From a virus, in IMG/VR virus record IMGVR_UViG_3300043602_000160, positions 1 to 41,834 of that record: a DNA stretch of 41,834 bases, one strand, 5' to 3'. Positions 5,474-38,877 of this stretch are shown one piece after another; positions within the stretch are counted from its first letter, which is position 1; each line of letters starts with the position of its first letter. The notes beneath the pieces were generated by a model that was not told the origin of the DNA, searched no databases, and was given only the letters and a program-made list of their open reading frames with translations. A program made the translations under genes and the position numbers.

Positions 5474-6405
5474 ACGTTCCGGCAAAAGCCGCCGCGCCTG
5501 CAGGCGATGTGATGGAGTCCGTTATTGCCAAGGGTGACCTGGCAAAGCTGACACCGGACGAGCGCGTGCAATACTATCAGGCAGTCTGCAAATCGCTGGG
5601 GCTGAATCCACTGACGCAGCCCCTGTCCTATATGACCTTGAGCGGAAAGCTAACGCTGTACGCTACCCGCACCTGCACCGATCAACTCCGCAAAATCAAT
5701 AACGTGTCCGTGGAAGTTGTTTCGCGTCACATCGCTGACGACATTCTGACGGTTCAAGTCAAGGCGACCACGCCAGACGGTCGCTCGGACGAGGACTTTG
5801 GTTCGGTAGCATTTCCGTCTGCGCTGAAAGGCGAAGCCCGCGCCAACGCTGTGATGAAAGCCGTCACCAAGGCCAAGCGCCGGGCCACATTGAGCATCTG
5901 CGGCCTGGGGTGGCTCGATGAAACCGAGGTCGAGGCCATCCCAGGCACGAAGTTGCCACCGCACAATCCACAAACAGGAGAGATTATCCAATCTGATGGC
6001 GCCGAGCTGGCACCCCCTTCCGACGCCGCAGATGCCGCCCCGTCATCCGAGCTTTCGCCGCGCGAAGTCGGGGCGGCACTTCTTATCGAGGCATTGGCAA
6101 AGGAAGCGGCCATGCGCGGCGAGGCCGTCTTTCGCGAGTTTTACCGCAACCGCACAGAGGCGGAAAAAGCTCGCATCAACGCAATGGGCGACGAGCTGCG
6201 CGGAATTATGGATGGCGACCTGCCGGACGATCACACCGAGCATATGAAACGTATAGAGGCATTCAAGCGTGGCCAAGCGGCGCGGTCTGCCGGCCACAAG
6301 CGTCAGGCCCTCCCGCCTGAATACCGTGAAGACGATCGCGCGCGCGAGGGACTGTGCTGGACGGCCGGTTTTGATGGCAGCGCGATGCCGGAATTCGGAG
6401 ATTAG
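5470..6405 (+). CDS. Putative ssDNA-annealing recombinase with RMF-like tail
   Basis: This protein has 311 residues. The N-terminal two thirds (TPDERVQYYQAVCKSLGLNP..., then NAVMKAVTKAKRRATLSICGLGWLDETE) resembles phage RecT-like and related annealing proteins, including the KAVTKAKRRA segment before a hydrophobic strand. These proteins coat single strands and promote annealing during recombination-dependent replication. A linker rich in Ala, Pro and Asp follows. The C-terminal part (FKRGQAARSAGHKRQALPPEY, later LCWTAGFDG) has the spacing of the ribosome modulation factor fold seen in some phage proteins. The start at 5470 overlaps the previous stop. The recombinase call is moderate; the tail call is tentative. 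Confidence 0.5.
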   Translation: MNVPAKAAAPAGDVMESVIAKGDLAKLTPDERVQYYQAVCKSLGLNPLTQPLSYMTLSGKLTLYATRTCTDQLRKINNVSVEVVSRHIADDILTVQVKATTPDGRSDEDFGSVAFPSALKGEARANAVMKAVTKAKRRATLSICGLGWLDETEVEAIPGTKLPPHNPQTGEIIQSDGAELAPPSDAADAAPSSELSPREVGAALLIEALAKEAAMRGEAVFREFYRNRTEAEKARINAMGDELRGIMDGDLPDDHTEHMKRIEAFKRGQAARSAGHKRQALPPEYREDDRAREGLCWTAGFDGSAMPEFGD

Positions 6406-6407
6406 GA

Positions 6408-7124
6408 ATGATGAATACCGTTGTTCCGATCGGCAGCATAGGCAGTAATTTTCTCACGTCGCTGGCCGCAGACATCCGCGTGCATCACGAAGAAGCCGAA
6501 CGCGCGGCCAAGACGCAAATGGAAGCCGGTCAATCCAAACTTGAGCACAGCATCAAGGCGGGAGAAGCCTTGATCGAGGCAAAGGAAGTGCTCACGCCGA
6601 CCGGCGGCAGTTGGCTCAAGTGGCTGAAAATCAATTTCACTTTCACCACGCGCACGGCCCAGCAATATATGAAACTCGCTATGAATGCCGACAAAATACG
6701 AAGCACTGCTTCGCATCCAAGTATCCGCAGCGCGCTCAAGGTCATAGCCGGTTCGAAGGATGATGCCACACCTTCCCGCTCAAAGGCGCCGCGAACCATT
6801 TCCGACAGTCACAAGAACGCGGTGAAGGCGGCCACCATCGGCCGCATCAAGCCAAAGCGCAAAAGCCCCGGCAGTAAACCAATAAAACAGAATTTCATCC
6901 CCAACATTCCAGGCTATCTCGAAGAGATGCTTTTAACGATGGAACGCTGCGTTGTGGATTATGAAATCACGCCGGTCGAAGCAACCGCGAAGGCAATCAT
7001 AGCGCATCGGATAAGGGTCGAGCACTTCAACGAAATAATAAACTGGCTAACACAGCTAAAGCAGATGGTGCATCAACAACCTCCTGCAGAGGGCGGCGCA
7101 CATGACCATCAAGACAAAGCATGA
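6408..7124 (+). CDS. DUF3102-like protein
   Basis: This 238-residue protein has a segment (about residues 42-95) of the form LEHSIKAGEALIEAKEVL, GGSWLKWLKINF, TTRTAQQYMKLA. This closely follows the DUF3102 pattern of phage and plasmid proteins thought to bind DNA or assist replication. A basic, Lys/Ser-rich middle (residues about 120-165) and a helical C-terminus follow. Two ATG codons stand in tandem; AGGA lies just upstream. It starts three bases after the recombinase-like gene and overlaps the next gene by 23 bases. The family match is good, the role not known. Confidence 0.65.
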   Translation: MMNTVVPIGSIGSNFLTSLAADIRVHHEEAERAAKTQMEAGQSKLEHSIKAGEALIEAKEVLTPTGGSWLKWLKINFTFTTRTAQQYMKLAMNADKIRSTASHPSIRSALKVIAGSKDDATPSRSKAPRTISDSHKNAVKAATIGRIKPKRKSPGSKPIKQNFIPNIPGYLEEMLLTMERCVVDYEITPVEATAKAIIAHRIRVEHFNEIINWLTQLKQMVHQQPPAEGGAHDHQDKA

Positions 7125-9148: not shown

Positions 9149-9433
9149 TTGGTTTCTTCCAGTAAAATCCAAGATCATTTGGCGTACCCGCCGCGAGGGC
9201 TGAGGGCGCCACGAGCAGCGGCTTATGTTGGTATGTCTGAAACGAGTTTTTTAGGCCTGGTTGCCGAAGGACTCATGCCAAAGCCCAAGCGGGTCAAAGG
9301 CATGAACATCTGGGATCGGCTCGAGCTGGATGCCGCCTTCGAGTCGCTCGCCCCGGAACAGCAGGACGAACCCAAGCGCCGCAACACCTTCGATACAATC
9401 CTAGGAACCAATACAGATGGCGAGCGCTCTTAA
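9149..9433 (+). CDS. Excisionase/AlpA-like HTH protein
   Basis: This 94-residue protein has the short MerR-like winged helix used by excisionases and AlpA regulators: LRAPRAAAYVGMSETSFLGLV, then a KRVKGMNIWDRLELDAAF wing. These proteins bend DNA at attachment sites or switch integrase expression. I chose the TTG start at 9149 because GGAGG lies 4 to 5 bases before it; the first in-frame ATG, at 9233, would cut into the HTH. It overlaps the integrase start by 17 bases, so the two are probably co-expressed. This supports a role in control of integration or excision. Confidence 0.7.
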   Translation: MVSSSKIQDHLAYPPRGLRAPRAAAYVGMSETSFLGLVAEGLMPKPKRVKGMNIWDRLELDAAFESLAPEQQDEPKRRNTFDTILGTNTDGERS

Positions 9434-10484
9434 GCACGTCCAACGGGCGGGCAAATACCATTACGTTCGGTTTCCCGGCCACGACCGCCAGCGTCTACCG
9501 GGCGCGGAAAATTCGCCGGAATATTTGGAGCGCTATGAGCAGTTGCGCGCGGCAGCCGAGAGCAAGCGCGGCGCACCGGCCCTGGCGCTCACCGTTCCTG
9601 CCCTTCCGGCGCGCGTGGCCTTTCTGTCCGGATCGCTCGGCTGGGTGATCGAGCAGTATCTCGGATCGCGGGCATTCCGCGACCTCGCCAACGAGACCAA
9701 GATCGTCTATCGCCGCCAACTCGACATCCTCAAGCGCGACATGGGCGCCGGCCTGATCGCCGACTTGAGACGCAGCCACGTCAACCAGTACAGCGCCGCG
9801 ATCGCCAAGAAGCATGGCAACGCCACCGGCGACGCCATGATCCGCAAGATTTCGATCCTCTGGCAATTCGCGCTCGGGCTCAAGCAGGCCAACATCGACG
9901 ACGAGGCCAGCAACCCGACCAAGCACGTCAAGTTGCAATATAAGGTGCGCAAGCCGCATGCGCCCTGGCCCGACAAGGTCCAGCAACTGTTCCTCAAGGG
10001 CGCGCCCGACTACGCCAAGCTCGCGTTCTATCTCTTGCTCTATACCGGCCAGCGCCGCGGCGACGTGCTGGCCATGACCTGGTCGGCCTATGACAGCGAG
10101 ACCAAGCGCATTCTCGTGGTGCAGGAAAAGACCGGCGTGACCGTACCGCTGCGCGCCCACAAGGAACTCGCCAAGCTGCTGGCGCAGACGCCGCGGGTGA
10201 GCGATCGCATCTGCACCAACTATTTCAAGAAGCCCTATTCCAAGGGCGGGCTGACCCACCTGATCGTGGCCCGGCTGCGCGAGGTGGGTGTCGATCCCAA
10301 TCAGTACACCCTGCACGGCCTGCGCAAGACCGCCGGCGTCAAGCTCGCCGAGGCCGGGGCCACCGTAGATATGATCATGCGGGTGCTCGGCCATTCCTCG
10401 CCGGCGCAGGCCCTCTGGTACACGCGCGAGGCCAACAAGCGGACGCTGATCGATGCCGCCATGGACAAATGGGAGGCGGCGTGA
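9417..10484 (+). CDS. int: Phage integrase, tyrosine recombinase
   Basis: This 355-residue protein has all expected catalytic residues of the tyrosine recombinase family: the first Arg in TGQRRGD, a Lys in EKTG, HGLRKT (His and second Arg), LGHSS, and the nucleophile Tyr in LWYTREAN. The N-terminal part (about residues 70-165) looks like a core-binding SAM-like domain. It would join phage and host attachment sites. It overlaps the excisionase-like gene at its start, and a GTG-started gene overlaps its stop. The length is usual for the family. The target site cannot be read from this window. Confidence 0.93.
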   Translation: MASALKHVQRAGKYHYVRFPGHDRQRLPGAENSPEYLERYEQLRAAAESKRGAPALALTVPALPARVAFLSGSLGWVIEQYLGSRAFRDLANETKIVYRRQLDILKRDMGAGLIADLRRSHVNQYSAAIAKKHGNATGDAMIRKISILWQFALGLKQANIDDEASNPTKHVKLQYKVRKPHAPWPDKVQQLFLKGAPDYAKLAFYLLLYTGQRRGDVLAMTWSAYDSETKRILVVQEKTGVTVPLRAHKELAKLLAQTPRVSDRICTNYFKKPYSKGGLTHLIVARLREVGVDPNQYTLHGLRKTAGVKLAEAGATVDMIMRVLGHSSPAQALWYTREANKRTLIDAAMDKWEAA

Positions 10485-28512: not shown

Positions 28513-28968
28513 CTAGAGTTCCTCTGGCCGCATTGAGTACTTGAACAAGAACTGTGCCTTCAGTGCCCCGTGCAGCGAGCGCATCCAGCCGACATCGGTC
28601 TGGCATCCGAGGTAGCGGATCGCGCCGTTGCCCCGTGTGCCGGTCTTGACGATCTGTTCGTTCAACTCCGTATCGAACAGCACCCGTTTGATCAGTTCGC
28701 GCCGCATGACGCTGAGATTGGACCCGACCAGATCGGCCTGATCCGCGATGATGATCTCGGGCATGAACTGAACGACGGTCGGCCGATGCGCCGGGCGCAT
28801 CGACAGGTCGGTGGCGTCGTTGGTTTCTTCGTCGCCATCGAGCACGATCACGGCCGGCAATTCGGTCTCATCAATATTGAGATTGTTGCGATAGGCCGAA
28901 CGGATATTCGGGATAGTGGCGACCACCACCAGCAACCGCGCCAAGATGTCCTCGCGAACATCGACCAT
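28513..28968 (-). CDS. Tail terminator/completion protein
   Basis: This 151-residue protein starts MVDVREDILARLLVVVATIP and contains DETELPAVIVLDGDEE and RPTVVQFMPEIII, an alpha-beta pattern of tail terminator and tail completion proteins that cap the tube below the head. The ATG overlaps the preceding stop as ATGA. It precedes the major tail protein, as in other siphophages. Confidence 0.6.
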   Translation of the reverse strand: MVDVREDILARLLVVVATIPNIRSAYRNNLNIDETELPAVIVLDGDEETNDATDLSMRPAHRPTVVQFMPEIIIADQADLVGSNLSVMRRELIKRVLFDTELNEQIVKTGTRGNGAIRYLGCQTDVGWMRSLHGALKAQFLFKYSMRPEEL

Positions 28969-29312
28969 CACCCGGCGGCCTTCATCAGCAGGAACCGCAC
29001 CTCGCCGAGGTCTTCGCCGTTCGGGCTGCCCTGCACCGGCGCTTCGCGCACGATCCAGCTTCGGCCATTGAACGTCAGCACGGCACCGATGCATTCACCG
29101 ACCGCAATTCCATTCGCGGCAAGCTCGGGGATGCGAGCATAGACGCCAGGGCCGACGCTGCTTGTCTCCACGCCGCCGCTTGTCTGCGTCTTCGATCGGG
29201 TCTTGTCGATCACGGTCAGCGCGATCTCGCCCGCCGTGCCAGCGCTCAGCGTCGCCGGTACGCCCAGCTCGGCATAGACCGGATCATAGAGGTCAGCGCT
29301 ATAGTCGATCAT
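28968..29312 (-). CDS. Head-tail joining protein
   Basis: This 114-residue protein runs from the ATG at 29312 (MIDYSADLYDPVYAELGVPA). It is beta-rich (GEIALTVIDKT, GPGVYARIPELAANG, GAVLTFNGRSWIVREA) like head-completion and stopper proteins of the connector. A TTG 51 bases upstream could extend it, but the added residues look unlike the family. It follows the sugar-transfer cassette and precedes the tail terminator. Confidence 0.6.
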   Translation of the reverse strand: MIDYSADLYDPVYAELGVPATLSAGTAGEIALTVIDKTRSKTQTSGGVETSSVGPGVYARIPELAANGIAVGECIGAVLTFNGRSWIVREAPVQGSPNGEDLGEVRFLLMKAAG

Positions 29313-29363
29313 CGGTTTTCGGCGCTCGCCCAACTTCGTTGATAGTTTGCCATCGCTCTCCAA

Positions 29364-30053
29364 TCATACTTTTCTCCTGAAAGCGAATGTTCCTATATCT
29401 TCACGACCTAGATCAGTTTCCATCTTGTTTTCTGATACTAACGCAAAGCCACAAAAATCCATTGCAAATACAAGTCCATCACGGGAAAAAAACCAATAAT
29501 GTTCCTCGGGCTTGAAGTGCTTCGAGCGCAGCGCATGCTCGGCGTCGCGGAAGATCGGCAGCGAGAGGAACACCCACTCGCGCACGTTGGCGAGCAGCGA
29601 CTGGAAGTCGGGGATGTGCTCGAGCACGTCCCACAGGGTGACCGCATCGAACGAGACCAGATGCGGATCGACCAGCAGCATGCGCTGCTCGAGCCAGGCG
29701 AGACCGGCCGGATTGACATCGTAGCCATAGGTCGATCGTCCGCGTTGGTTGCGCAGTTCGACAAAGGCGCCCGAGCCGATGCCGACATCGATCAGCGTGC
29801 CGCGATAATGCCGCTCGACGAAATTGACCCGCGCCTGCATCAGCGCGCGGCCGAGCTCGGTCTGGGCGTTGCGGTCAAAGCTGTCGAAGTAGTCCTGATC
29901 GTAGGGCGTGTGCCCGGCCTCGACTGGGTAATAGCCGATGCCGTGCTGCAGCCACCAGGTCAGGCAGCGGCGCGAGAACTGCCCCACCAGCGGTAGAACT
30001 GTCCGATCGGGTCCGCGATCCGCTTGTCGCAGGTGTGCAGCATATTCGTGCAT
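29364..30053 (-). CDS. SAM-dependent methyltransferase
   Basis: This 229-residue protein has a class I methyltransferase core: LIDVGIGSGAFVEL (glycine-rich SAM loop, about residues 87-100), YGYDVNPAGLAWLEQR and FDAVTLWDVLEHIP. It would methylate a small molecule or sugar; no DNA-methylase motif is present. The start at 30053 overlaps the upstream gene by 94 bases and has GGAG about 11 bases ahead; a shorter GTG start at 29987 is possible. The last 40 codons look low in GC, unlike the rest of the gene. It belongs to a three-gene cassette. Confidence 0.75.
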   Translation of the reverse strand: MHEYAAHLRQADRGPDRTVLPLVGQFSRRCLTWWLQHGIGYYPVEAGHTPYDQDYFDSFDRNAQTELGRALMQARVNFVERHYRGTLIDVGIGSGAFVELRNQRGRSTYGYDVNPAGLAWLEQRMLLVDPHLVSFDAVTLWDVLEHIPDFQSLLANVREWVFLSLPIFRDAEHALRSKHFKPEEHYWFFSRDGLVFAMDFCGFALVSENKMETDLGREDIGTFAFRRKV

Positions 30054-30850
30054 CGACAGAACTTCTCCGGTTTGGCAAACCCGATGCGGCTGAGATCAAG
30101 CCGCGGGTCGGTGATCTTCTCGGGCGCGTTGTGTCCGCCGTGGCCGCCCAGCACGACGAACGTCTTGACCTTGAGCGCGAGGCCAGCCGGCACGATCCAG
30201 CCGACACCGCCGACGACAATGTCCGCGTCACGGACCAGGGCGAGCAGCTCGCGCACCGTCAGCTCGCCGTGGACGAAGTAGCGGTGTGCCGGCGGCGGAT
30301 CGCCGACGACCCATTCCTCGCCCGGCAGCAGATCGGCGACTGCCACCACGGTGTGCGTCGCCATCAGCTCGGCGGCGATGGCCGCGATGTATTCCGGCCG
30401 CGGGTTGCGCGCCTCGTTGCGCCATTCGGTGCGGACTGTCACCGGACGGATGACCGCGATCGGTCGATCGGGCCTGACCGGCGACGCGCCTAAGTCCGGC
30501 AGATCGAACAGGGCCGGATCAAACCTGACGTTGAGCTTCGACCAGCGTTGTTCGAGCGAACCGATGATCGTCTGCGAGGTCAAATCGCGATAGGCGACCT
30601 TGATCTCCCGCATCGGGATCGGCGCCGGTCGCATCCACCGCTCGGGCGGCTGCCGCGCCATGTTCTTCTGCTGGGTGCGCAGCTTGCGCGTTCCGCAGAC
30701 GAACTTGATATCGAGATCGGCGTATAGCTCGGGCCAAGGCGTCTCGAGATGCAGATCGTAGTCCCTTGCGGCCGCCCGGATGAACGGGCGCGAGTAGCAG
30801 TTATCGCCCAAACCCCACATCCCCCGAACGAGGATGGGCTTAGGCCGCAC
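29960..30850 (-). CDS. Glycosyltransferase family 9-like protein
   Basis: This 296-residue protein starts at GTG (VRPKPILVRGMWGLGDNCYS), with GGGAG about 5 bases upstream. The N-terminus resembles the GT-B fold of heptosyltransferase-like enzymes. A second domain follows with LMATHTVVAVADLLPGEE and LRDADIVVGG-type strands (VRDADIVVGGVGW), then LGGHGGHNAPEKIT. It probably transfers a sugar to a virion or cell-surface target. It overlaps the DUF115-like gene before it. Confidence 0.65.
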   Translation of the reverse strand: MRPKPILVRGMWGLGDNCYSRPFIRAAARDYDLHLETPWPELYADLDIKFVCGTRKLRTQQKNMARQPPERWMRPAPIPMREIKVAYRDLTSQTIIGSLEQRWSKLNVRFDPALFDLPDLGASPVRPDRPIAVIRPVTVRTEWRNEARNPRPEYIAAIAAELMATHTVVAVADLLPGEEWVVGDPPPAHRYFVHGELTVRELLALVRDADIVVGGVGWIVPAGLALKVKTFVVLGGHGGHNAPEKITDPRLDLSRIGFAKPEKFCRCTNMLHTCDKRIADPIGQFYRWWGSSRAAA

Positions 30851-31487
30851 GCCGCTCCCTCAGCATGTCCTGCAGGTCGATGACCGGCCACAGATCGGCA
30901 TAGGCACTGCCGGGGCTGGCGTTCCACAGCGTGATGCCCATGGTTCGCAACGGCTCGACCATGGTGGCGAGGTCGGCGCGGTGGCGATCGTAGCGTGTTG
31001 CCTTCGGCGCCCAGCGATGCGGCTTGTGGTGCCAGGTCCGGCCGTCCGCCGCCGCCTTACCGTCGATGCCGAGCCAGACGATGGCGCCGCCCGGCCCGAT
31101 GAGATGCGCCGCCAGGTTGGTCGCCGCCGTCAGCGAGGTCCACTTCTGCATCAGGCTGTCACGCTCGCGCGCGAGCCCCGGCGGATTGGTCTTGCGGCAG
31201 ACCAGCACGTTCTTGGCTTCCGACACCATGCGCGAGGTGGTGACTGCCCGACCCGGAAAGTTGGCAACCGCCGCCTTGTTCTCCGGCTCGTTCCACCAGC
31301 GCCAGTCGCCGAAATAGAGGAAGTCGGCCCACGGTACTGCGTAGACGCTCGAGTTGATGACGATGACCCGCCGGCCGCGCAGCGCCTCGAGATCGACATC
31401 AAGCACTGACGGCCCGCCGCCGACGATGAAGACGGTCTCGCCCGGCCATTCGCGCGGGACCGGCCAGAAAGCTGGATTACGCGACAT
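30840..31487 (-). CDS. DUF115-like sugar-related protein
   Basis: This 215-residue protein begins MSRNPAFWPVPREWPG and has VFIVGGGPSVLDVDLEALRG, then RRVIVINSSVYAVPWADFLY. This glycine-rich loop and strand pattern are seen in DUF115 and related glycan-linked proteins carried by phages. It is coupled to the glycosyltransferase-like gene by an 11-base overlap. The enzymatic role is not established. The ATG at 31487 lies within the end of the connector gene. Confidence 0.6.
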   Translation of the reverse strand: MSRNPAFWPVPREWPGETVFIVGGGPSVLDVDLEALRGRRVIVINSSVYAVPWADFLYFGDWRWWNEPENKAAVANFPGRAVTTSRMVSEAKNVLVCRKTNPPGLARERDSLMQKWTSLTAATNLAAHLIGPGGAIVWLGIDGKAAADGRTWHHKPHRWAPKATRYDRHRADLATMVEPLRTMGITLWNASPGSAYADLWPVIDLQDMLRERRAA

Positions 31488-32097
31488 GAAGGCGCCGATA
31501 CGGCTTGATGAGATCGACAACGACCGCCGACAGATATCCCGATGAGGCGGTCGACAGCGACGGCGTGAAATAGCTCACGCGGGTATCGCCGTGCTGTACC
31601 TCGCGGATGCCGGGATCACGGGAGCCGGTGGTGCGGCCGTCGTTCACGGCCTGGATCACCGCCTGCTGCAGCCGCGCCGGCGCCCCTTCCGGCAAGTCGT
31701 AGCCGCCCGCATAGACCACGGCGATCGTGTCCCCACCCCACTGGCCGCCGGTCCACAGCCGGCCACTGGCGGGATCAAAGTCGTAGTCGCCCGCCGTTGC
31801 GCCTGCGGTCGAGACCTCGATCACCTCGACCACCGGGTAAAGCGAGAGCGTCAGCGCCTGCCGCGGCAGCAGGTTCTCGTTCCAATCGAAAGTAAATGTC
31901 TCGACCGCCTCGGCGAGCCCGAAACGGCGCTGGCAATACTCTGCAATGATGCGTGACTGCATCGTAATCGCGGCCTGCAGCGCGGCATCCTCATCGGTGC
32001 CCGTGATGGCGAGCGCGAACTTGAGATCGTCGAGGCTGATCAGGTCAGGCCCCGCGCTATCGGTCGCCTCGCTGAGAATTTCGAGGACAGAATGCAT
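31477..32097 (-). CDS. gp6-like head-tail connector
   Basis: This 206-residue protein matches the HK97 gp6-like connector pattern: LISLDDLKFALAITGTDEDA, then ALQAAITMQSRIIAEYCQRR, later LTLSLYPVVEVIEVS and IAVVYAGGYDLPEGAP. The C-terminal part contains PSLSTASSGYLSA. It forms a ring below the portal. It follows the collagen-like genes and precedes the sugar-transfer cassette. Confidence 0.82.
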   Translation of the reverse strand: MHSVLEILSEATDSAGPDLISLDDLKFALAITGTDEDAALQAAITMQSRIIAEYCQRRFGLAEAVETFTFDWNENLLPRQALTLSLYPVVEVIEVSTAGATAGDYDFDPASGRLWTGGQWGGDTIAVVYAGGYDLPEGAPARLQQAVIQAVNDGRTTGSRDPGIREVQHGDTRVSYFTPSLSTASSGYLSAVVVDLIKPYRRLHVA

Positions 32098-32712
32098 TTA
32101 CTTGAACCTTACCGGCTCGAGCGCGCGTTTCTCATCCGTGCGCGCGTCGCGGCCATCGCTGCCACGCTTGACGGCGAGGCGCCAGTCATCGGATTTGCCG
32201 GGCTTGGCTGATGTCTCGGCCTGGGCGATGAAGAACGAGCCGCCCAGCGTGACGCCGTCGCCCGCGGCATAGGTCGCGCCTTCCTTCCACACCCCGGCAT
32301 CGAGCACGAGTGCGGTCTTGATCTCATGCACGGTGTCGCCGATGGCCAAGCGCAAGGTTCGCCCGCCGTCCGGCGTTGTGACTGACGCGGTCTTGAACGC
32401 GCGCCCGACCTGCTCAACGGCGTAATCCTGCAGGAAGGTCAGATCGCTGGCATTGCGGCCGGGCTCGCCCTTCTCACCGCGCTCGCCGTTCTTGCCGTCG
32501 ATCCCAGGCGGGCCGATTGCGCCGGGACTGCCCGGTTCGCCGCGCTCGCCCTTCTCGCCGCGCTCGCCTTGCAGCCCGGTTATGCCCGGCGGTCCCGGCA
32601 TGCGCGCCAGCGCCCGCACCTCGGTCAGCGCCAACTGGCACATGCGCAGACACACGCCGAGCGTCTCGTTGAGGGTGTAGGACGGCGCCGGGATCATCGG
32701 TGTTTCGCTCAT
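32098..32712 (-). CDS. Collagen-like protein with carbohydrate-binding-like end
   Basis: This 204-residue protein contains about 16 Gly-X-Y triplets (residues about 38-86, for example [17 protein letters not shown]), a short collagen-type triple helix. The C-terminal part ([20 protein letters not shown], then [11 protein letters not shown]) resembles short binding modules of phage fibres. An N-terminal helical part may attach it to the virion. It lies between the connector gene and the longer collagen-like fibre gene. Confidence 0.75.
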
Positions 32713-33122: not shown

Positions 33123-34946
33123 TCACATCCTCAACCGAAACATCAGGCCGATGCCGAACAAGCTGCCGCCGTCATCGCCTTGCCAGCCGTTGGCTGTTCC
33201 CCATTCCAGCGCTTGGAAGAAATGCGCACCCAGTTGTGCGGCATAGGCGATGTTGCCGACAACGGGGGTTTGATACCCGGCCACGGAGACGTAAGCCGTA
33301 TTCCCTGAAAATGCTGACGTGCTATCGAGCCCCACGCCAGTTATCGAACCGGAGGCATGGCCATTGACGACGACCGAGTAAAGGCAGCTTGGGCTGTCCT
33401 CTGCCAATCCGGCGACGAAGCTCACACGATTGTTGTTCGATGCATTGGCAGCATGCCAAGCATTGACGCCGTAGGTCCACGATGACGTGCTGTCGCTGAC
33501 CTTGGTGCCGACATCGACGCGGTTATAGGCGTTCCAGACATGGAGTGAAGCCGCGCCGCCGCCGGCTGCACGGGTGCCAACAATCCAATCGAGCGTTGCC
33601 GATGCATTGCTGCGCGTGGTGCCGACATAAGTGCCGCGCTGCGCTGCTGGGCCGGTGGTGGTTCCGTTGCCGATCGTGACGTTGTTCAGCCAAATGCCGT
33701 TGACCCGTACTAGCGCGGTACCTGCCGATCGTGTGGTGTCGTTCGTCCAGTCAGGCCCATGAACCAACCTGACGGTCCCACTTCTATTCCAGATGAACCA
33801 GTCGTTGACCTTGTTGGCACCGATGACGCTTGGATTATCGATCGTGTTGTTCATCGCGGTCCCCACCTCGATGAACGTCGTCATGTTCATGCTGACGCCG
33901 TCATGAAGTGGTATTTTGTCCCCGACATAAGGGGTGTACAGGAGCACATTTTGTCCCGACAAAGTTATTGCCATCACGGGCGCACCAGACTGCAACGTCA
34001 GGCGTCCCTGCGGCGGGCTGGGCGTGCCGCCGCTGGCCGCAACCGCCGCCGTCACAAAGGCGGTTGTTGCGATCGAGGTGTCGTTGTCTCCTGCGGTCGG
34101 TGTCGGGGCCTGGGGATCGCCGGTGAATACGGGCGAGGCCAGCGGGGCCGCCCCGATGTCGCTCAACACCGTTGCTGGGGCCACGCCCTGGATCGTGGTT
34201 GCCGTGACCCACTTGCCATATTGCCCGGCAGTAGGCGTTCCGGAATTGCTGACGTTGCCACCGCCGCCGGTCGCAGTCAGGTTGCCGCCCGAGAACGCCA
34301 AACCGGTGCTCACGACCACCGGCGACCAGGTATTGCCGGCCGAGCGGTAATAGATCGTGTTGGTGCCGGTGAGCGCGGCAATCGCGGTGAGGTCGGCGTC
34401 GAGCGGCTGATAGGCCCCCGCGATTACGGCCGTCGTCGAGTAGGCCGACAGGTCGATCGACAGCGTACCCGAGACTAACGATAGCGGCGCATTGGCAGTA
34501 ACAACGCCGGCCGGGCCGGTGGGACCGGGATCACCCTGCGGCCCTTGCGGTCCCTGTATTCCGGGTGTTCCGGGCGGTCCTTGCGCACCGGTGGCGCCGG
34601 GCGACCCTTGCGCGCCGGTGGCTCCTGCTGGGCCTTGCGCACCCGTTGCACCGGGCGATCCCTCGGCTCCCGGATCGCCTTGTGGCCCTGGCGGGCCTTC
34701 CGGTCCTGCTGGCCCTGTCTCGCCCGCAGGACCGGGCGGTCCCGGCGGGCCTTGCTCGCCGTTACCTTCGCCGCTTCCGCTACTTCCGCCGCCGCCGCCG
34801 GGCGCGATCCGAATGCGATCGATGCGCTCGTTCAGCTCGTCGACATCCTCATAAAGCTCGGTGAAATTGTTATTGCACTTGGTGAACGAGATACGAATTT
34901 CATCGTCGTGCGGCAGGTCGTCGATGTTGATAATCTGCTGCGACAT
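33123..34946 (-). CDS. Collagen-like virion fibre
   Basis: This 607-residue protein has four parts. The helical N-terminus ([20 protein letters not shown], coiled coil to residue 45) is followed by a Gly/Ser hinge. A Gly-X-Y region of about 28 triplets comes next (residues about 63-150, [19 protein letters not shown]). Fibre repeats such as [16 protein letters not shown] and [20 protein letters not shown] precede a beta C-terminal head of about 300 residues. This is a trimeric fibre architecture. Its location between portal and connector genes is unusual for a tail fibre, so it may be a head fibre. Confidence 0.75.
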
Positions 34947-36915: not shown

Positions 36916-38877
36916 TTAGGCGGTGTGGACGGGGCCGCCCCAGTCAGCGCTGGTGAGATACGCAACCGACTGCGTCCTGCCCCTCATCCAGTTAATTATA
37001 CGCTCGGCACGAATCGCCACCGTGTTGGTTTGGAACATCGAGACTAACGATGTCGCGCCGGTCGGCGTGCCCGAGTTGTGCGCCGGGGCATCCGACATTT
37101 CGAGCGAGGCTTCGCGGCTGGCATCGATCTGGATGTCACCGTCATCCGCGACGAAGATGTCGGAGGCGTTGACCAGCACAACGATGTTCATCGCCTTGGT
37201 GATGTAGTCGCTGGCGATCACCGGCATGCCGTTGAGCGAGCCGCCGGTCATGGACATGCTGGGGAATTCCGATTGGCCGAGCGGGTTGGTCATCATCGCC
37301 AGCGCGACCGCGTTGTTGCTCGACATGATCCAGACGCCGCTCGAGACCGGATTATTGGCCGCAGCGAACTTGGCATACAGCGACCGGATGTCGAGCCGGA
37401 TGTCGTCGGCATCGTCGCCCGACGACACCACCGTGGCGGCGCCGTTGGTGATCGAGGCCGGTGAGACTCCCGCCACCGCGGTCTTGGCCGGATCGATGAA
37501 GTCGATGTCGAGACGTTCGCGCAGCGCCTGTGCCAGACTATCGCGAACGATGATGTCCGACTTCGGATTGCTGAAGCGAATCGACTCGTCGGTGAGCGCG
37601 CAGATGTTCGCCACTTTGGTTGGCGGCAGTGTAGTGCGCGAGAAGCTAAACGAGGTGAGCGGCTTGGCCTTACCCTCGCCGACCCAGTAGCCGGCGCCGC
37701 CGCCGGTCTGCGTGACGATCGGCGTGTTGAACATCACCGAGCGCAGCGCCGGAACGCCGCCGGTGCCGAAGCGACCGAGGATGGTCATCGGCCGCAGGTA
37801 TTCCAGGAAAGCAGCAACCGCGGCGCTCTCCGTGCTGTACAGGTTGACGCCCCAGTTGCCGCTGATGTTGGCGCCGGCTGGGACGTTGGCCTTGAACTCG
37901 GCAACGACGGCGCTGTCCGAGCCATACATTTCGGCCGCGATGTCGGACGCGGGGCGAAACACCTTCTGCGACAGCGCCAGGCATTTGACCTTTTGCGCAA
38001 AGAGCTGACCAAGCTCCAGCTTCGGCTGCGGCTTGACGATGATCGATCCGCCGCGCGCCGAGGCACCGTCCTCGGTCTTCTCGACCCTGGTCACCGCCTT
38101 GGCCGCGAATGCCTTGGCCTGCTCGATCTTGCGCAGCCGCACCAGATCCTTGTCGATCGCCTCGACCTCGCTGGAAAGATTGTCGAACTCATCCTGCTCG
38201 CCCGCGTCCGAGGTGCGATCCTCGTCGAGACTCTTCTGCATCACCGCTTCCATGCGCGACGCGCTCGCGGATCGCTTGGCTTCTAAAGCTGTAATCTGTT
38301 CAGCAATGGTTTTCATGGCGCCCTCCAGGGCAGCAGACTTCGGTTGCGATGATCCCGAGGCGCCGGGTGGGTTGAGTTGAACAACACGACGCGGCTTTGC
38401 CTGGCCGGACGCGGCCCGCTGCGCGGTGTCGATCGATTTCACGGTGGCGATGGAGGCTTCGGAGTTGGCCGGAATGGTCACGGCAGATAGCTCGAACCAA
38501 TCCCATTTGATGAAACGGATGCCGTCGGTCTTCTCGATGCGCGCCGTCTCGGTCGCCTTGAACCCGATTGAAAGGCCTTGCACCAAGCCAGCCTTGATCA
38601 ATCTCCATGCGCGATCGATCTCGTCGGTCACGCCCTTGGCGATCTGGGCAACGATCTCGATGCCGTCCTTACCGACCTTGGCCTTCGTGACATGGCCGAT
38701 CGGCTGCTTCGAGTCGTGCTGCCACAGCAGCGGCAGCGGCAACTTGAACTGCGCGCCCATCGGCTCGACGATGTCCTCCAGCCGATCCGGCGTCGGCGTC
38801 GACGCCATACCGGTGATGATGCGCGCGTCGTCGTCCACCGCTTTCACGGTGAGAAGCGAATAAGCCCGGTTCAACAT
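36916..38877 (-). CDS. Fused prohead protease and major capsid protein
   Basis: This 653-residue protein joins two usually separate proteins. Residues 1-150 are an HK97-type prohead protease: LWQHDSKQPIGHV with His54, LVQGLSIGFKATE with Ser103 and the strand WFELSAVTIPAN. Residues about 185-265 form a helical scaffold-like region (MKTIAEQITALEAKRSA, EFDNLSSEVEAIDKDLVRLR). From about 285 on is the HK97-fold capsid, with ISGNWGVNLYSTESAAVAAF and ALREVERLDIDFI-like parts (AQALRERLDIDFIDP). Cleavage would release mature capsid protein. It is followed by a terminator. Confidence 0.87.
   Translation of the reverse strand: MLNRAYSLLTVKAVDDDARIITGMASTPTPDRLEDIVEPMGAQFKLPLPLLWQHDSKQPIGHVTKAKVGKDGIEIVAQIAKGVTDEIDRAWRLIKAGLVQGLSIGFKATETARIEKTDGIRFIKWDWFELSAVTIPANSEASIATVKSIDTAQRAASGQAKPRRVVQLNPPGASGSSQPKSAALEGAMKTIAEQITALEAKRSASASRMEAVMQKSLDEDRTSDAGEQDEFDNLSSEVEAIDKDLVRLRKIEQAKAFAAKAVTRVEKTEDGASARGGSIIVKPQPKLELGQLFAQKVKCLALSQKVFRPASDIAAEMYGSDSAVVAEFKANVPAGANISGNWGVNLYSTESAAVAAFLEYLRPMTILGRFGTGGVPALRSVMFNTPIVTQTGGGAGYWVGEGKAKPLTSFSFSRTTLPPTKVANICALTDESIRFSNPKSDIIVRDSLAQALRERLDIDFIDPAKTAVAGVSPASITNGAATVVSSGDDADDIRLDIRSLYAKFAAANNPVSSGVWIMSSNNAVALAMMTNPLGQSEFPSMSMTGGSLNGMPVIASDYITKAMNIVVLVNASDIFVADDGDIQIDASREASLEMSDAPAHNSGTPTGATSLVSMFQTNTVAIRAERIINWMRGRTQSVAYLTSADWGGPVHTA

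Follow-up and report, generated by a model that had tools for sequence, protein, structure and literature searches.

Protein glycosyltransferases known so far include Maf and TibC. The latter transfers heptose to the autotransporter TibA and contains an iron finger formed by four cysteines at positions 339/342/358/370 (PMC4358343). Sugars on collagen-like triplets have been described for a bacterial spore and a giant virus: the collagen stretches of BclA are densely glycosylated and carry the terminal 2-O-methyl sugar anthrose (PMC10050317, PMC9614988), and mimivirus L230, which belongs to another enzyme family than the proteins considered here, acts in vitro on collagen-like peptides of the virus, which it hydroxylates and glucosylates (PMC9614988). 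Glycosylation of phage virions is likewise known; according to PMC11256854, where mycobacteriophage Che8 is cited, phage-encoded glycosyltransferases are linked to virion-protein glycans. In the related phage Maravista, the glycosyltransferase genes are located near the 3' end of the genome, unlike those described here. No example of a glycosylated collagen-like protein in phages was found in the open-access literature searched. Genes for a DUF115/sialyltransferase-like glycosyltransferase, a GT9-like glycosyltransferase and a methyltransferase (together termed the triad) are already annotated in D3-like phages. They correspond to gp10-gp12 of Pseudomonas phage PAJU2, in the same order as in the present DNA, and to orf7, orf12 and orf13 of phage D3, where the sialyltransferase-like gene is separated from the other two; GT9 and methyltransferase share ~40-50% identity with their counterparts studied here. 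A search of the open-access literature, with subscription literature largely outside its reach, retrieved no paper on the function of the triad, which is composed of ordinary enzyme classes and is uncharacterised but widespread in phages.

The window (the whole stretch of DNA analysed, a viral record 41,834 bases long) showed no DNA-level matches to phages. An integrase gene (9417-10484; phrog_1, E 1.9e-36) indicates that the phage is probably temperate. Genes for morphogenesis are located on the minus strand, beginning with terminase, the protease-capsid fusion and the portal (Table 1). Next come collagen-like A, a gene for a 132-aa protein and collagen-like B, followed by the connector and the three-gene cassette; the joining gene, the likely tail terminator, the major tail protein and the tape measure complete the series. 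The connector gene and the start of the first cassette gene share 11 nt, and within the cassette successive genes share 11 and then 94 nt. Coordinates, overlaps and family assignments thus bear out the earlier note, according to which the three genes are coupled between connector and joining genes. Its further statement that two collagen-like genes lie immediately upstream is right to within one gene, since both lie upstream of the connector gene, separated from each other by the 132-aa gene. Neither promoter-like sites nor terminators were found on the minus strand between positions 28900 and 33200. Ratios of dN/dS versus relatives range from 0.05 to 0.24 over the three genes (0.09-0.23 for the DUF115-like gene, 0.05-0.13 for the methyltransferase gene), indicating that the cassette genes are real and maintained by purifying selection. 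In relatives devoid of the cassette, the joining gene comes directly after the connector gene. Within the capsid fusion, the protease half is conserved in relatives and the capsid half is swapped, at least two types with 20-30% identity being present.

Table 1 Cassette, neighbouring genes and candidate acceptors in the window
Feature	Position	Strand	Size	Basis
Protease-major capsid fusion (alternative acceptor)	36916..38877	-		phrog_617, E 2e-150; capsid half of type A
Collagen-like fibre protein A (candidate acceptor)	33123..34946	-	607 aa	Pfam Collagen, E 1.6e-9; tail-fibre PHROGs
Collagen-like protein B (candidate acceptor)	32098..32712	-	204 aa	Pfam Collagen, E 7.4e-10
Head-tail connector (gp6-like/Ad1)	31477..32097	-		phrog_442 head-tail adaptor, E 1.5e-25; Phage_connect_1 at cut-off
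DUF115/sialyltransferase-like glycosyltransferase (first cassette gene)	30840..31487	-	215 aa	phrog_4603, predicted fold
GT9-like (GT-B fold) glycosyltransferase	29960..30850	-	296 aa	phrog_6804, predicted fold
Class I SAM methyltransferase	29364..30053	-	229 aa	Methyltransf_23, phrog_6564
Joining gene (likely ATG start ~29312)	28968..29363	-		weak Phage_attach PF05354, E 0.03, below cut-off

The first cassette protein matches phrog_4603, annotated as 'alpha-2,3-sialyltransferase' (E 4e-21). It has no match to Pfam PF01973, the former DUF115; its relatives score just below the cut-off of 34.6 bits, with 33.2 and 31.8. The AF2 model (pLDDT 84) was compared with VIA-align and yielded as top match the Maf flagellin glycosyltransferase 5mu5 (Z 15.5; residues 253-516, 188 aligned, rmsd 3.2), i.e., the MAF core fold is predicted to be present. 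The likeness is confined to the central domain of Maf, and a flagellar context is absent from the window. Second in rank were the GT42 sialyltransferases Cst-I and Cst-II (Z 10-11.6, with 11.6 for Cst-I), a predicted likeness of fold only that says nothing on CMP-activated sialic acid as donor, and the model also matches an MptE-type pterin kinase from archaea (Z 11). NCBIfam provides no name for this protein or for the GT9-like one, and searching the PDB by sequence only with the GT and Maf-like profiles returned nothing useful.

The second protein matches phrog_6804 (E 1e-98). No match to PF01075 (GT9) was obtained at E<=1, and the homologue from phage Eowyn reaches 12.9 bits compared to a gathering score of 22. 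The AF2 model (pLDDT 79) displays a GT-B fold of the heptosyltransferase type (Z 15-17), with TibC (4rap; Z 17.2), the GT9 structure 3tov (Z 16.8) and WaaC/WaaF (Z 15.6) as top matches; further GT-B enzymes follow at Z about 10. As judged from the model, these top matches are near ties, the LPS enzymes being almost as close as TibC. A GLGD-type aspartate (Asp16) is invariant in the family even across very distant phages and, counting off the aligned ranges, would coincide with the catalytic Asp110 of TibC. In an alignment of homologues from D3, PAJU2, Psp6, Mulvp2, Eowyn, BUCT-ZZ01 and Bradyrhizobium, a C-terminal motif C-x-C-x4-H-x-C-[DN]-K is invariant in all phage relatives and represents a possible metal site. 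TibC shares the GT-B/GT9 catalytic fold and a Cys-rich C-terminal motif, but its four-Cys iron finger is only reminiscent of, and not identical to, the motif of the window enzyme. Moreover, the model covers solely TibC residues 93-394 and is devoid of the N-terminal beta-barrel, so that the iron finger plus beta-barrel characteristic of BAHT/TibC are absent, and no autotransporter was detected. For both transferases, the closest relatives of solved structure have proteins as substrates. Protein glycosylation is thereby favoured, even though a shared predicted fold does not prove the function of either enzyme. The third protein matches Methyltransf_23 (E 7.9e-14, above cut-off) and phrog_6564 (E 7.6e-62) and is presumably a sugar-capping O-methyltransferase.

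Close relatives in IMG/VR comprise at least 99 for GT9 and at least 107 for the DUF115-like protein, representing over 100 related phage contigs. In PAJU2, the triad occupies nearly the same site as in the window, between head closure and a gp10-like gene, and in D3 it is split around the connector genes. The full triad is furthermore present in Eowyn, and at least the GT9-methyltransferase pair in Psp6, Mulvp2 and BUCT-ZZ01. Profile searches for distant GT9 relatives yielded 80 loci, all 80 of which contain DUF115-like, GT9 and methyltransferase genes, with GT9 always preceding the methyltransferase; about 23 of these loci have a D3-like setting, 8 a PAJU2-like and 48 another context. In two lambdoid-type prophages (L393, 9438-11444; L421, 9399-11456) the triad resides between the Q antiterminator and lysis/terminase genes. 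This post-Q site falls in the late transcript, where accessory genes typically reside. The triad is known from at least four genomic sites and recurs in late or structural operons of numerous unrelated phages; the neck position is one of several, most of them late. As lambdoid prophages have the triad after Q, an essential role of the neck position was rejected. In the Caulobacter jumbo phage CcrColossus (L008, 9001-13554), a DUF115-like gene is located right after a 5-kb tail gene, with genes for a nucleotide-sugar transferase, a methyltransferase and GT9 nearby. Genomes searched from the family around Bradyrhizobium sp. Ec3.3 yielded prophages with related portals, from which an alphaproteobacterial host is inferred for the window phage; one of these prophages also possesses collagen, DUF115-like and GT9-like genes in order.

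Both collagen-like proteins of the window qualify as candidate acceptors: fibre A contains about 29 Gly-X-Y triplets, and protein B has a run of 16 triplets followed by a CBM5/12-like C-terminal domain (CBM_5_12, E 0.0045, below cut-off). The latter domain also matches the C-terminal end in some portal families. The genes for portal, collagen B, connector and capsid served to gather relatives, and near-identical contigs were merged, resulting in 84 groups; the comparison of collagen lengths was limited to those with a readable span from portal to connector (47 with and 17 without cassette). The median number of triplets in this span is 34 in the presence and 9 in the absence of the cassette, and 16 or more triplets occur in 44/47 versus 5/17 groups (Fisher p 6e-7). 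For protein B, the run comprises 15-30 triplets in most cassette-bearing relatives as compared to 8-10 in most others. The cassette-lacking relative L252 has an orthologue of fibre A (6007-7035) without the collagen segment. Exceptions exist in both directions, with 9-11 triplets despite the cassette (L083, L087, L129) and 15-32 triplets without it (L162, L173, L325, L326). Mapped on the connector tree, the data represent 2-5 independent contrasts, nearly all of which agree with the expectation, a number that puts significance out of reach; the trend in a portal group more remote from the window falls short of significance (p 0.18). An enrichment of Ser/Thr in collagen of cassette-bearing phages (7.9% versus 6.1% of X/Y positions) was unconvincing. 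Additional long collagen ORFs inside or beside the cassette were observed in 8/59 groups, compared to 0/25 groups without cassette (p 0.1). In the phages with such an ORF (L099, L100, L104, L107, L078 and L165), the methyltransferase is mostly absent and GT9 diverged or missing.

Linkage to collagen recurs elsewhere. In an unrelated prophage of Bradyrhizobium sp. Ec3.3, the GT9-methyltransferase pair precedes a collagen fibre of 1027 aa (L299, 13053-16136) by ~2.4 kb, and in L421 a collagen-like fibre is encoded directly upstream of the triad. The L299 fibre has several collagen stretches (33 and 44 triplets) and is situated among DNA-metabolism genes. Collagen as a constant partner of the triad was nevertheless rejected: runs of 7 or more triplets are absent within 10 kb of 79/80 distant loci, and runs of 6 or more from the whole genome of PAJU2 and the first 50 kb of D3. 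No collagen run was found in the whole of Psp6 or in most of Mulvp2 either. The many relatives with triad and no nearby collagen imply that a collagen target is not the general rule. Accordingly, the earlier proposal that the cassette decorates phage fibres stands in part: predicted structures agree with the enzyme classes, and late operon and fold neighbours with decoration of virion proteins. Collagen fibres as acceptor are backed by the strong raw association and the Bradyrhizobium case, and opposed by the few independent events, covariation with the capsid and collagen-free triads. Stability without sugar of a recombinant prophage collagen from E. coli (PMC3368898) also counts against collagen.

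Instead of collagen, a capsid, neck or tail protein could be glycosylated, i.e., a structural protein shared by all triad phages. Capsid, connector and joining genes have the triad as neighbour in D3, PAJU2 and the window, most such phages being devoid of collagen, and Che8, as cited in PMC11256854, offers a precedent for capsid glycosylation. Capsid type A is accompanied by the cassette in 28/28 relatives, as would be expected for a capsid acceptor. Type B, however, is about evenly divided between relatives with (10) and those lacking (11) the cassette, which weakens capsid type as sole determinant, and even within type B collagen is longer where the cassette is present (p 0.005). Counterparts of the window's major tail protein share 65-97% identity with it in both cassette states, and this protein is therefore unsupported as covarying partner, and in many lambdoid prophages the triad after Q is remote from capsid, connector and joining genes. 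Overall, a shared structural acceptor of this kind appears rather unlikely.

Alteration of the host LPS core late in infection, e.g., to stop progeny from binding to debris or to stop superinfecting phages, is judged unlikely as well. WaaC/WaaF, LPS heptosyltransferases that classically belong to GT9, come very close to the best fold match, Iyer et al. (PMC7824862) interpreted phage glycosyltransferase clusters as modifying outer polysaccharides, and D3 contains other LPS-modifying genes. The latter (acetylase, Iap, Wzy-beta) are, however, located apart from the triad, the best fold match of the Maf-like partner is not an LPS enzyme, and the triad is retained in phages whose hosts differ greatly in surface. 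A triad in the late operon should furthermore be silent in the lysogen, and association with collagen length also speaks against an LPS target. The association itself might reflect hitchhiking, in that a mobile late-operon unit shares head-module ancestry with long collagen and has no functional tie to it. At least four triad sites, few independent contrasts and covariation with the capsid module would agree with such an origin; purifying selection on all three genes, persistence of the association within capsid type B and its recurrence in Bradyrhizobium and L421 render it very unlikely.

Taken together, the triad likely glycosylates virion proteins, and collagen is a plausible substrate in the window's phage group. 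For the combined reading, a late-expressed unit for glycosylation and capping of virion proteins with collagen-like fibres as likeliest acceptors in this soil group, the chances appear nearly even. According to the proposed mechanism, the GT9-like enzyme would probably transfer the first sugar, plausibly a heptose drawn from the ADP-heptose pool of the host, onto Ser/Thr of a virion protein. Its DUF115/Maf-like partner may add, or extend with, another sugar, for which a CMP-activated acidic one is plausible; capping of the glycan would then fall to the methyltransferase. In the soil phage group, the putative acceptors are the collagen-like stretches of both adjacent fibre proteins, such that neck/head fibres would be glycosylated and possibly become stiffer or shielded. 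More tentative is the specific proposal that a Maf-like and a TibC-like glycosyltransferase together with a capping methyltransferase O-glycosylate virion collagen triple helices, with collagen length of the fibres co-evolving with the cassette, which would constitute the first such system in a bacterial virus. The best reading at present is that the acceptor differs between phage groups, collagen-like fibres being the best candidate in that of the window.

If true, many temperate phages would possess their own protein-glycosylation machinery among the late genes. As the distant relatives show, phage groups must differ in the substrate of the triad, which poses a testable puzzle. The soil group provides natural pairs, the same fibre occurring with collagen and cassette or without either, which would make the purpose of sugar-coating by phages directly testable. 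The triad would furthermore be a source of enzymes, soluble and compact, with which collagen-like and other proteins could be decorated in bacteria.
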